A stretch of 28,451 bases of DNA from a virus: the IMG/VR virus record IMGVR_UViG_3300021139_000099, positions 1 through 28,451 of that record. One strand, 5' to 3'. Position 1 is the stretch's first letter, and each line of letters starts with the position of its first letter. Of the stretch, positions 1,693 to 18,896 are shown in pieces. The position numbers and the translations under genes are program-made. The notes beneath the pieces are model-generated. The model did no database searches and was not told the DNA's origin. It worked only from the letters and a program-made list of their open reading frames with translations.

Positions 1693-1730
1693 TTAATCAC
1701 CGATTGCATACGCGCCATGCAACCGGCTAG

Positions 1731-1804
1731 TGGCGGATACGGGACTCGAACCCGTGACCTAGTGAGCATGAGCCACCCGCGCTACCCAACTGCGCCAATC
1801 CGCT
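1731..1804 (-). tRNA. tRNA with CAU anticodon (Met or Ile2)
   Basis: A full cloverleaf folds on the minus strand. The acceptor has GCGGAT paired to ATCCGC plus an A1-C72 mismatch, and U8 is present. The D arm is GCGC/GCGC, the anticodon stem is GGTGG/TCACT around loop CTCATGC, and the T arm is ACGGG/CCCGT around TTCGAGT. The anticodon is CAT. The three G:C pairs that mark initiator tRNAs at 29-31 are missing, so an elongator Met or a lysidine-type Ile tRNA is more likely. CCA is not encoded. A strong promoter at 1811-1839 places the expected start at about 1804, the tRNA 5' end. Confidence 0.88.
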
Positions 1805-1810
1805 TCGATC

Positions 1811-1839
1811 ACTATAGCACACCGGCGGGCAAAAGTCAA
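1811..1839 (-). promoter_or_regulatory. extended -10 promoter for the tRNA genes
   Basis: On the minus strand a TTGACT -35 (1834-1839) is followed by exactly 17 nt ending in TGTGC and then a TATAGT -10 (1811-1816). The TGn element makes it an extended -10 promoter. The expected start, 6-7 nt past the -10, is at about 1804, which is base 1 of the tRNA. There is therefore essentially no 5' leader. Confidence 0.8.
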
Positions 1840-1850
1840 GTTTATAATGC

Positions 1851-1881
1851 AAAAAGCCCCCCGGGCCGAAACCCGAGGGGC
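1851..1881 (-). terminator. intrinsic terminator after the small membrane protein
   Basis: On the minus strand a 10-bp stem (GCCCCTCGGG against CCCGGGGGGC, one T-G wobble) with a TTTCGG loop is followed by TTTTTG. It lies 17 nt past the stop of the 2206-1898 gene and upstream of the tRNA promoter. It thus separates the two minus-strand units. Confidence 0.88.
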
Positions 1882-1897
1882 AAATGCTGAAGATTGG

Positions 1898-2206
1898 TTA
1901 CTTGGTCGCGGTTGGCGCAGGGGCAGCGTTGCCCTGGTTGGCGCTAGGCGAAACGACCACGGGAACCGGTTCCGGCTGAGCCGGGAGTGCTCCCAGAAGC
2001 CACGACAGGCTCGGGACCTTGGTTTCCGCCCATCGAAGGCCGGCGTAGTAGGCGGTCCCAAAGATGGGCGTCAGAACCCCGACCCACTGAGCGCCGAGAC
2101 CGGCCGTGGCCTTAGTGATCCACGCCAGAATTGCACCGACGACTGCCGGGACGGCGGTTCGGATGACATTCTTGGCGTAGTTGGTTGCCTTAGTTGAAAG
2201 TGACAT
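1898..2206 (-). CDS. small membrane protein, holin-like
   Basis: This 102-aa protein has two hydrophobic segments, at about residues 14-31 and 39-60, then a Pro/Ala-rich soluble C-terminal tail (around PAQPEPVPVVV). Two transmembrane helices with a short hydrophilic tail fit a holin or other small phage membrane protein, but no specific family motif is seen. ATG 2206 is preceded by GGGAG at good spacing, which sets the start. The gene is monocistronic. It has its own promoter (2231-2259) and its own terminator (1851-1881) and lies on the strand opposite to the surrounding phage genes, a moron-like arrangement. A second candidate membrane gene is at 28338. Confidence 0.75.
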   Translation of the reverse strand: MSLSTKATNYAKNVIRTAVPAVVGAILAWITKATAGLGAQWVGVLTPIFGTAYYAGLRWAETKVPSLSWLLGALPAQPEPVPVVVSPSANQGNAAPAPTATK

Positions 2207-2979: not shown

Positions 2980-3341
2980 TGGGTCGCCGTGTTGGCGTGA
3001 CGGGTGGTCGTAGCAATTACGACTACATTCACATCCACCGAGTGCTGAAGGAGATCCTGGAGCCGGGTGACATTCTTGTCCACGGTGGAGCCAGCGGCGT
3101 TGATTCGGTATCGGCCCAAACCGCCGTGTACCTCGGCAACGCGGTGGAACAGCACAAGGCTAACTGGGCCAAGCACGGCAAATCGGCGGGCGGCCTTCGC
3201 AACCAAAAAATGGTTGACACGGGGCCAGACTTTGTGGTACAGTTTGCAGGAGGGACCGGGACGGCCGACATGGTCAAGCGGTGCAAGGCGGCAGGGGTAA
3301 GAGTTATCCACGCCGACGTCACAACAGGAGAGACACAGTGA
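2979..3341 (+). CDS. SLOG/YspA-like (DUF2493-type) Rossmannoid protein
   Basis: This 120-aa protein shows the hallmarks of the YspA/DUF2493 branch of the SLOG superfamily. These are VTGGR near the N-terminus with a following Asp, LVHGGASGVDSV at residues about 33-44, RNQKMVD at about 75-81, and FAGGTGTADMV at about 88-98. SLOG domains are related to DprA and LOG enzymes and are thought to bind nucleotides or nucleotide-derived ligands. The length matches a stand-alone domain. The TAATG junction and the GTGA overlap with the next gene place it in one coupled cluster with a nucleotide-acting fusion enzyme. Nucleotide sensing or processing is therefore likely; the substrate is unknown. Confidence 0.8.
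   Translation: MGRRVGVTGGRSNYDYIHIHRVLKEILEPGDILVHGGASGVDSVSAQTAVYLGNAVEQHKANWAKHGKSAGGLRNQKMVDTGPDFVVQFAGGTGTADMVKRCKAAGVRVIHADVTTGETQ
3214..3243 (+). promoter_or_regulatory. candidate internal promoter
   Basis: TTGACA (3214-3219), an 18-nt spacer ending in TGTGG, and TACAGT (3238-3243) lie inside the SLOG gene, about 95 nt before the DUF4406-kinase start. The TGn extension matches the other promoters here. However, the bases also encode conserved SLOG residues, so chance is a real possibility. Confidence 0.35.
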
Positions 3342-4309
3342 GCCAGGGAACTGTTTATGTCGCAGGACCAATGCGCGGATACGACAAGTGGAACTTCCCA
3401 GCGTTCGACGCAAACTCCGATTGGTTGCGCACCCTTGGCTGGACGGTAATTTCCCCCGCCGAGATCGACCGCGAGATCGGGTTCGACGGGAACAACGCGG
3501 AGGTTGTTTTCACGGAAGCCGACTTCCACGAAGCGATGAAGCGCGACTACGCCGCCCTCCTCCGGTGCGACGCCATCGCTTTCCTGCCTGGGTGGGAGAA
3601 GTCAGCCGGCGCCAAGTTGGAGCGAGAGTTCGGCATCAAGTTGGGGCTCGACTTCTACCGAGTCGACGAGTCCACGGGTCTGTTCCAGAAGGAAGTCCTG
3701 GTCGGCATTACCGGCTTTGCACGCTCTGGCAAAGACACCCTAGCCGCGCAGATGGTGGAAAAGTTGGGTTTTCAGCGAGGTAGTTTTGCAGACACCCTCC
3801 GCAACGTCCTATACGCTCTTAACCCGGTAATCGGGCTCGACGCAACGGGCGGCTCGACGGCTTTCCCACGTTTTGGAACCGCTGGAACGGCGCCGGTCTT
3901 TCTTTCCGTCAAGGATGTCGTCGACGAAATCGGCTGGGAGGCCGCCAAGGACGAGCAACCAGTCATCCGGGAGTACCTACAGCGCCTTGGCACCGAAGGC
4001 GGCCGCACACATATTAACGACTCCGTATGGGTTGACGCTGTTCTTAACAAGCCCCACGCAGCGCGACTGGTAATTCCGGACGTTCGCTTTCCCAACGAGG
4101 CAGAGGCCATCAAGAAGCGCGGAGGAATCATTGTCCGCATCCATCGTGAGGGCTACTTCCCCGTCAACGCGCACGCGAGCGAAACGGCTTACTCGGACCA
4201 GGATTTCGTCCTCGACAATGACGGAACACCCGAAGATCTCCTCACTCAGTTCGCAGCCGTGACCGGTTTGTTCCAAAACGAATTGTTCGTGCGTAGGCTT
4301 ATTTTGTGA
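3338..4309 (+). CDS. DUF4406 (deoxyribosyltransferase-like)-deoxynucleotide monophosphate kinase fusion
   Basis: This 323-aa protein appears to join two enzymes. Residues 1-115 match the DUF4406/nucleoside 2-deoxyribosyltransferase-like fold: VYVAGPMRG at the N-terminus, a central Asp-rich strand (CDAIAFLPGW) and SAGAKLERE, with the Glu in the place of the family's catalytic residue. Residues from about 120 match phage dNMP kinases: P-loop GFARSGKDT (about 126-134), then GSFADTLRNVLYALNP and a late PDVRFPNEAEAIKK. Phage dNMP kinases supply dNTP precursors. The N-domain suggests base or sugar exchange or hydrolysis on nucleotides. GTG 3338 overlaps the previous stop and has AGGAG upstream. Confidence 0.82.
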   Translation: MSQGTVYVAGPMRGYDKWNFPAFDANSDWLRTLGWTVISPAEIDREIGFDGNNAEVVFTEADFHEAMKRDYAALLRCDAIAFLPGWEKSAGAKLEREFGIKLGLDFYRVDESTGLFQKEVLVGITGFARSGKDTLAAQMVEKLGFQRGSFADTLRNVLYALNPVIGLDATGGSTAFPRFGTAGTAPVFLSVKDVVDEIGWEAAKDEQPVIREYLQRLGTEGGRTHINDSVWVDAVLNKPHAARLVIPDVRFPNEAEAIKKRGGIIVRIHREGYFPVNAHASETAYSDQDFVLDNDGTPEDLLTQFAAVTGLFQNELFVRRLIL

Positions 4310-4574: not shown

Positions 4575-4920
4575 GTCGCGCGCCAAGGGAACTAAGTTCG
4601 AATCAGAGGTCGTGGCGTATCTACGAGAGAACGGCTTCCCTGATGCCGAGAGAACTGGCAGCGCCGACTTTGGCGGCGGTGACATCAAAGGGACCCCGTT
4701 TGCAATCGAATGCAAGAATCAGCAAGCCATGGCTCTGGCGTCATGGGTTGACCAGTCCAGGGAGACTGGGCGCAGGATAGCCAAGTTTCCGTTCCTGGTC
4801 CACAAGAGAGTTCGCAAACCAATCAAGAACGCATATGTGACCCTAGAGTTGCAAGACCTCGTGTGGTTCGCTCGTAACGCCGGCTCGTTGAGCAAAGGAT
4901 CTTTGCCACCGTACCCTTGA
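4567..4920 (+). CDS. Hjc-like PD-(D/E)xK endonuclease (Holliday junction resolvase family)
   Basis: This 117-aa protein fits the archaeal-type Holliday junction resolvase / PD-(D/E)xK fold. It has KGTKFESEVVAYLRENGF with the N-terminal Glu, then RTGSADFGGGDIKG with the catalytic Asp, then FAIECKNQ with the ExK pair, and a downstream Gln/Trp helix. The length is normal for the family. In phages such enzymes cut branched DNA before packaging or act in recombination. ATG 4567 is chosen over the upstream TTG 4558 because it overlaps the previous stop and begins the conserved basic segment. The last codons overlap the -35 of the next promoter (TTGACA at 4917). Confidence 0.8.
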   Translation: MSKSRAKGTKFESEVVAYLRENGFPDAERTGSADFGGGDIKGTPFAIECKNQQAMALASWVDQSRETGRRIAKFPFLVHKRVRKPIKNAYVTLELQDLVWFARNAGSLSKGSLPPYP

Positions 4921-4945
4921 CATAACTGCACTTCTGTGCAATAAT
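4917..4945 (+). promoter_or_regulatory. extended -10 promoter upstream of the packaging genes
   Basis: TTGACA (4917-4922), 17 nt ending in TTCTGTGC, and AATAAT (4940-4945) form a strong extended -10 promoter. The TTCTGTGC before the -10 is identical to that of the promoter at 2277. The predicted start is about 4951, just before a terminator-like hairpin. Confidence 0.78.
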
Positions 4946-5003: not shown

Positions 5004-5597
5004 ATGGCAAAACCTTTGAGTCGCAGGGCACAGCAGCGGCGCGACCGAATTCTCGAGAGTTTGTCAAATACTGCCGTCTTGCTCTCCAAGATCAAGGCCG
5101 AGGACGTCGAGGAACTCATCCGACGCGACGCCATCGAGGTCGACGGCTCCTCCGGTGGCGGAATCGACATTGGCATGCCCCGGAGCGCTTCGAGCAATTC
5201 TTCGTCGCCCGTCGAGCGGGCTGTCATCGCCAAGATGGAGGGCAAGGGTCTCAAGGACCCCGTGCGGGCCGAAGTTAAGTCCGTCGAGCGAAACATCATT
5301 GACGGCGAGCACAGTTTCATCCGAGCGTTGCAGAGCATTGTCATGTTGCGAGACGGAGTGGAGAAGCAGCGCCAGCGCTCGCAGGCGTCAGCGCCATGCG
5401 AGGTTTGCGAGATACTTCCGGCAGCCAAGCAAGCCTTGTGCCTGGACGATTGGGCCGACTGGGTTGCTAACGGAGCGCCCGACCGCCAGCGATGGGTTGC
5501 CTACAAGACGAAGGCCCGTTCTAGCGACGGCAAGATCCTCGTCACCGAGCAGCCCCCTGCACGGCACCCCGCTCGTACCCTTGACAATCAGAAATAG
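5004..5597 (+). CDS. hypothetical protein with Cys-rich C-terminal segment; possible small terminase or DNA-binding protein
   Basis: This 197-aa protein starts at ATG 5004 behind AGGGGG; the ATG at 4944 lies inside the -10 box and is rejected. The N-terminus is basic and helical (around LSRRAQQRRDRI). A Gly/Ser-rich linker occupies about residues 48-70 and a helical segment about 72-125. A Cys pair, CEVC (132-135), is followed by LCLDDWADWV, resembling a partial zinc-binding module. It precedes terminase by two small genes, the usual place of a small terminase subunit, but no helix-turn-helix is evident. The function is left open. Confidence 0.7.
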   Translation: MAKPLSRRAQQRRDRILESLSNTAVLLSKIKAEDVEELIRRDAIEVDGSSGGGIDIGMPRSASSNSSSPVERAVIAKMEGKGLKDPVRAEVKSVERNIIDGEHSFIRALQSIVMLRDGVEKQRQRSQASAPCEVCEILPAAKQALCLDDWADWVANGAPDRQRWVAYKTKARSSDGKILVTEQPPARHPARTLDNQK

Positions 5598-5608
5598 TGT
5601 GATATAGT
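5581..5608 (+). promoter_or_regulatory. extended -10 promoter before the terminase cluster
   Basis: TTGACA (5581-5586), a 16-nt spacer ending in TGTGA, and TATAGT (5603-5608) form a strong match. It overlaps the end of the 5004 gene. The expected start, at about 5614-5615, falls just inside the 59-aa gene that begins at 5610, so the promoter probably serves the 5789 gene and terminase. Confidence 0.65.
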
Positions 5609-18672: not shown

Positions 18673-18896
18673 AAGCCCTGGAAGGGGACCAGTTCATAGA
18701 GGTCGGCGCTAGCGCAATTTTGCTCGGCGTCGACCCTATGAACATCCTTGACAGGGCTGGCGAAGATGCAATAATCGAGGTCGCCCTTCTGCGTCGCGCT
18801 TACCAAATCAAGAACGAGCAGACAATGAGGGAGCAGGAGAATCTTGGTGTCATTTTGGGAAATACTGTTGCAGAGATTTTCTCCAAGATTCTTTAG
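18130..18896 (+). CDS. tail assembly chaperone, -1 frameshift product
   Basis: The open frame downstream of the short form's stop is in the -1 register, lacks a convincing start of its own, and begins coding-like sequence exactly at the T-run (18666-18670). Slippage of Phe-tRNA from TTT at 18667-18669 back one base lets TTA at 18669-18671 be read instead of TAG. It continues into LEALEGDQF and ends at SKIL, adding 75 residues for about 255 aa in all. The extension is helical (NILDRAGEDAIIEVALLRRAY). This G/GT-type arrangement is conserved in tailed phages. The slippery site is short and not the classical seven-base form. Confidence 0.8.
18748..18775 (+). promoter_or_regulatory. candidate internal promoter before the tape measure
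   Basis: TTGACA (18748-18753), 16 nt ending in ATGC, and AATAAT (18770-18775) lie inside the chaperone extension. The TGCAATAAT end is identical to that of the promoter at 4917. However, a terminator (18930) lies between this site and the tape measure gene, and the site could be chance. Confidence 0.35.

Follow-up and report, generated by a model that had tools for sequence, protein, structure and literature searches.

Can the position of a promoter, by itself, define the mature 5' end of a phage tRNA? To our knowledge, RNase P is regarded as near-universal in the formation of tRNA 5' ends, with an archaeon that no longer has the enzyme as the accepted exception. The locus that raises this question lies in a freshwater phage fragment of 28,451 nt (IMG/VR record IMGVR_UViG_3300021139_000099); "the window" refers below to this whole stretch, which was the DNA analysed. 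The large terminase of the phage is about 35% identical to those of Arthrobacter phages and about 60-78% identical to those of most of 79 IMG/VR contigs. A DNA search of INPHARED with the tRNA locus gave no match. An exact-pattern search of IMG/VR with the window's promoter and tRNA gave none either, so no near-identical copy of the pair is present there.

The elements of the locus, in the order in which the minus strand is read, are as follows.

1898-2206, minus strand: upstream ORF of 102 aa, a small membrane-type protein with a weak match to phrog_10742 (unknown function)
1856-1881, minus strand: intrinsic terminator, an 11-bp GC-rich stem followed by TTTTT (dG -24.2 kcal/mol, z -3.8)
1834-1839, minus strand: -35 element, TTGACT
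1817-1819, minus strand: TGC, extended -10 motif
1811-1816, minus strand: -10 element, TATAGT
1805-1810, minus strand: 6-nt gap, GATCGA, whose length but not sequence is kept by relatives
1731-1804, minus strand: tRNA-CAU with an A1.C72 mismatch; A1 (1804) is the predicted transcription start
1699-1727, minus strand: stable hairpin directly 3' of the tRNA, a 12-bp stem with no T run (dG -16.9 kcal/mol, z -3.6)

The intrinsic terminator (1881-1856) sets the tRNA promoter apart from the upstream ORF. When that ORF was used as bait, only two remote relatives were recovered, both without tRNAs. The hairpin at 1699-1727 is a possible signal for 3' processing or protection, judging from its position and stability. 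Beyond it, at 1692-1617 on the minus strand, are an acceptor-like stem, CGCAGTTCGACTCTGCG, which resembles a T arm, and an 8-nt loop, CTTTCAGT, which resembles an anticodon loop. Rfam and ARAGORN give this segment no tRNA score, and it folds no better than shuffled sequences; it could be a tRNA relic or a tRNA with an 8-nt loop. Elsewhere in the window, in a single ORF at 3281-4309 on the plus strand, a DUF4406/nucleoside deoxyribosyltransferase-like part is fused with a deoxynucleotide monophosphate kinase part, and an ORF of the related contig L040 is fused in much the same way.

We hold it about equally probable that these elements do or do not form a stand-alone leaderless unit, in which terminator, promoter and a start at A1804 would yield an initiator-like product with no need of RNase P at the 5' end. 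The terminator, a prediction from sequence, would stop read-through from the upstream ORF, and the sigma70-type extended -10 promoter, whose geometry is plain, would set A1804 as +1 and G2 as +2. The main primary transcript would open with the mature A1, making the tRNA leaderless, and a transcript without a leader would not need RNase P at this end. Host enzymes would trim the 3' end and presumably complete the CCA, since it is not encoded (only C74 is present). The product would be an initiator-like CAU tRNA that matches the determinants of formylation; the A that stands for the usual C at position 1 would retain the mismatch and supply a purine for the start. A unit with the same 6-nt gap is maintained in a clade of related phages. 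A phage tRNA whose mature 5' end is set by its promoter is thus a plausible and testable reading of the locus, and one that would be new for a phage.

Promoter and predicted start

The tRNA promoter consists of TTGACT, a 17-nt spacer and TATAGT, with 10 of 12 consensus matches plus TGC. It has the TTGACA-like -35, 16-18 nt spacer, TGn and TATAAT-like -10 of a sigma70 extended -10 promoter. Promoters with TGn and at least 10/12 matches number five in the window against 0.05 per Markov shuffle, a chance rate of about 9 × 10-7 per position and strand; the chance of a random promoter falling within a few bases of a tRNA end is of the order of 10-6 to 10-5. Four more extended -10 promoters (TTGACA, TGn, at least 10/12 matches) lie on the plus strand, at 3214-3243, 4917-4945, 5581-5608 and 18748-18775. 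With counts so far above shuffles, this kind of promoter seems to be in wide use in the phage.

Initiation by bacterial RNA polymerase typically falls 7-8 bp past the -10, with a strong bias for purines; when the core recognition element has G at +2, the distance is reduced to 6-7 (PMC5101437). A first-pass annotation of this DNA had placed the -10 at 1811-1816 on the minus strand, just before base 1 of the tRNA, and both the coordinates and the letters are correct. Its distance of 6-7 nt also holds: six bases separate the -10 from the tRNA, and A1804, which ARAGORN and the Rfam tRNA model (RF00005, 57.3 bits) both give as the tRNA 5' end, is the seventh base after the -10. A1 is a purine and is followed by G2 as the +2 G, which fits the start rules exactly. 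The geometry therefore predicts the mature 5' base as the start, as the annotation had proposed, though the transcript may instead carry a leader of 1-2 nt. The bases at positions 5-8 past the -10 are G, A, A and G, and the base before A1 is an A, not a pyrimidine; because positions 5 and 6 are purines, starts at A1805 or G1806 are plausible in the window.

Spacing in related phages and in wider surveys

The same spacing recurs in related phages, where the annotation had suggested looking for it: four lineages (L031/L036, L034, L032/L038/L068 and L040/L072) carry a promoter of their own 6 nt before an A1.C72 CAU tRNA, and L305, which is not among the terminase relatives, has TTGACA-17-TATAAA with a gap of 6 before an A1.A72 tRNA. 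Because of this recurrence, we conclude that the 6-nt spacing exceeds chance. The gap reads TTACAT, TTTTAT, ATTCAA and TTCTAT in the four lineages and GATCGA in the window. The window differs from the clade at 3-6 of the 6 sites while the length is fixed; between -35 and -10 there are 17 or 18 nt in all of them. The clade's terminases are 90-95% identical among themselves and 68% identical to that of the window. Members so closely related count as one lineage, which with the window makes two deep lineages; independent support amounts to some two to three lineages, not five events.

The 6-nt gap is confined to one kind of tRNA within the family set, which comprises 152 distinct tRNAs (a promoter being defined by a score of at least 9/12 within 60 nt of the tRNA). 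Thirteen are promoter-driven, and the gap is 6 in all seven A1.C72 cases. Among the other six, two strong promoters lie at gaps of 8 and 9 (Thr tRNAs) and three have gaps of 28-51; the last, a gap-0 promoter of the L005 Gln tRNA, was rejected as spurious, since it overlaps a neighbouring tRNA.

A general-pattern scan found CAU tRNAs of the A1 type throughout IMG/VR. The 125 tRNAs examined among the matches listed include a few that come from bacteria. A promoter lies within about 30 nt of ten of the 125, and among the matches listed the gap is 6 in eight (one, in L221, probably by chance), 7 in one and 13 in one, where about 0.09 is expected by chance for each gap value. The L221 match was not counted; its -10-like TAGAAT overlaps an apparent ORF stop codon.

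To place these values among tRNAs of all kinds, phage tRNAs directly behind TTGAC-18-TATANT were surveyed in IMG/VR (112 among the matches listed), with 5' ends set by acceptor pairing, as ARAGORN ends were off by one in several cases. The mode of the gap is 8-10 nt (39 of 112 among the matches listed), and a gap of 6 occurs in 3 of 112 among the matches listed, the window included. For comparison, the credible minimum gap at 28 tRNA promoters of actinobacterial genomes is 10. Phage tRNA promoters are generally nearer the tRNA than those of chromosomes are, and among them the promoters of A1 tRNAs occupy the closest workable position. The arrangement had been described beforehand as unusual in a phage. 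That view needs softening: phage tRNA promoters are commonly close (mode 8-10 among the matches listed), and 6 nt lies at one end of a continuous range. Two further features of the IMG/VR survey deserve mention. AT or CAT often stands immediately before base 1 (L081-L200), and in L121 and L185 a consensus-like promoter lies 4 nt upstream of canonical C1.A72 phage initiators, a gap at which the normal start position would fall within the tRNA. A canonical C1 initiator with TATANT at a gap of 6 was absent from 396 genomes of the host-like phylum, but this is weak evidence, as one exact tRNA sequence was required.

The main rival to the leaderless unit is a short leader trimmed by RNase P. Transcription would begin mainly at A1805 or G1806, the host enzyme would remove one or two bases, and the locus would be the compact end of the usual phage layout. 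We regard this as a substantial possibility, if on balance a doubtful one. Phage gaps that peak at 8-10 among the matches listed correspond to predicted leaders of 2-4 nt, the Thr tRNAs of the window's own family are at gaps 8 and 9, the window offers purines at positions 5 and 6, and E. coli is documented to have pre-tRNAs with short leaders that RNase P processes (Bowden et al. 2017, as cited in PMC6264599). However, a gap of 6 is two to four bases under the usual phage layout and is fixed in the relatives. Moreover, T precedes A1 in L031, L034 and L040, where A1 is the sole purine at positions 6-7 and transcription would have to begin with a pyrimidine to give a 1-nt leader.

The tRNA and its mismatch

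ARAGORN assigns the window tRNA the anticodon CAU. Methionyl-tRNA formyltransferase recognises a 1-72 mismatch together with G2-C71, C3-G70, G4-C69 and A73, and the second hallmark of initiators is the run of three G-C pairs in the anticodon stem (3GC; PMC7949028, PMC9976931). In the Rfam alignment the 1-72 pair of the window tRNA is the non-standard A1.C72, unpaired as in initiators and not paired as in elongator tRNA-Met, and the full set G2-C71, C3-G70, G4-C69 and A73 is present. The 3GC pairs (29-31/39-41) are absent, their places being taken by T29-A41, G30-C40 and G31.U39, and C11-G24 stands where initiators have A11-U24 (R11-Y24). The window tRNA is best described from these determinants as initiator-like, lacking two initiator features (3GC and A11-U24). 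Relatives L031, L034, L038 and L040 have the 3GC anticodon stem. The CAU tRNAs of the window, L031, L038 and L040 carry G37 beside U36, which is unusual for a reader of AUG; A37 is found in 93 of 102 phage A1-type tRNAs.

The first-pass annotation had suggested that the A1.C72 mismatch might be linked to the leaderless start. As a consequence of the start, this fails. The mismatch occurs in CAU tRNAs with no adjacent promoter in L048, L014 and L016, and in promoterless context in the mycobacteriophages Roots515 and Myrna and the Gordonia phage GMA2; the idea that A1.C72 is confined to tRNAs with a leaderless promoter was therefore rejected. Base 72 varies among 102 distinct A1 tRNAs of phages: 40 have A, 38 have C, 22 have T and 2 have G. 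Since a 1-72 mismatch is common where no promoter is near, it is not caused by the leaderless start. The annotation's overall interpretation consequently stands as regards geometry and conserved spacing, and falls as regards the mismatch as a product of the start. The link may run the other way: spelling the mismatch with A first, in place of the usual C, may be what allows a purine start. The C1.C72 of L023, a promoterless relative of L014, fits this idea, though it is a single case. A broader proposal is that some phages have a dedicated, RNase P-independent route to an initiator, with the gap held at 6, the mismatch written A1.C72 for a purine start and a 5'-triphosphate on the product; we advance it tentatively and think it rather unlikely.

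Another reading is that the 6-nt gap is merely inherited or coincidental, promoter and tRNA having moved as a block, with an imprecise start (A1805 to G1803) and a window tRNA that may be decaying. The window and L038 do have the motif GTGTGCTATAnT in common, the members of the related clade are close kin, and the window tRNA, without 3GC pairs and with G37, has a weakened anticodon stem. We nevertheless consider this reading improbable: gap sequence and spacer length have diverged and gap length has not, L305 has the same gap outside the terminase relatives, and the acceptor-end determinants of the window tRNA are intact.

The tRNA arrays of the 79 terminase relatives lie mostly on the minus strand and in the same place, and their first tRNA is usually no more than about 15 nt past the upstream stop codon, with no promoter between. 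In L048 (L203), a terminator and promoter pair follows the CAU tRNA and precedes a tRNA-Thr (gap 8); in the window the pair precedes the CAU tRNA. A further reading is that the window promoter is minor and that RNase P cuts the tRNA out of a longer transcript that includes the upstream ORF, on the pattern of L048 and L014. This is very improbable: the CAU tRNAs of L048, L014, L016 and L023 do stand directly behind the stop codon of the upstream ORF with no promoter, but the ORF and the tRNA of the window are separated by a strong terminator and an equally placed strong promoter.

Implications and known systems

If the leaderless unit is real, it would show that a ribozyme can be replaced, one gene at a time, by nothing more than the placing of promoters, in a host that has RNase P. 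It would also allow the effect of a 5'-triphosphate on an initiator tRNA to be studied in a simple setting; the triphosphate would sit at the unpaired position inspected by formylase and peptidyl-tRNA hydrolase. Given the spacing rule, any phage that carries the module can be used to test the idea directly. More generally, the survey suggests that phage tRNA promoters are near-leaderless, unlike the chromosomal ones sampled. In text searches, mainly of papers outside the subscription literature, no tRNA of a bacterium or phage was called leaderless, so the arrangement may be new.

The tRNA-Met genes of Roots515, Myrna and GMA2 share the acceptor mismatch and the CAU anticodon with the window, but lie within tRNA arrays and have no adjacent promoter. 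Bacterial tRNA-fMet (C1 x A72) has the same CAU, unpaired 1-72, G2-C71, C3-G70, G4-C69 and A73 (PMC7949028, PMC9976931), whereas the window tRNA has A1.C72, C11-G24 for A11-U24, and G37, with no 3GC. In the short-leader tRNAs of E. coli (RNase P/RppH; Bowden et al. 2017, as cited in PMC6264599) the promoter is likewise very near the tRNA, but the short leader is removed by RNase P, while a leader of zero length is predicted for the phage tRNA. The theta-ribozyme tRNAs of gut phages are also proposed to bypass a host processing nuclease, at the 3' end and by means of a ribozyme (PMC10879173); in the window tRNA it would be the 5' end, by promoter placement.

The closest parallel is Nanoarchaeum equitans, which has no RNase P; each of its tRNAs has a promoter 26-27 nt upstream and is made with a 5'-triphosphate (PMC10100707). 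In N. equitans, and by prediction in the phage, a promoter at a fixed distance sets the start at the mature tRNA end, and a 5'-triphosphate is expected. The systems differ in that an archaeal promoter serves all tRNAs of N. equitans, while in the phage a sigma70-type promoter 6 nt upstream serves one type of tRNA, with a start predicted from geometry, in a host that presumably has RNase P. The initiator tRNA of N. equitans starts at a purine at -1 (PMC10100707), which parallels the purine at +1 in the phage tRNA.
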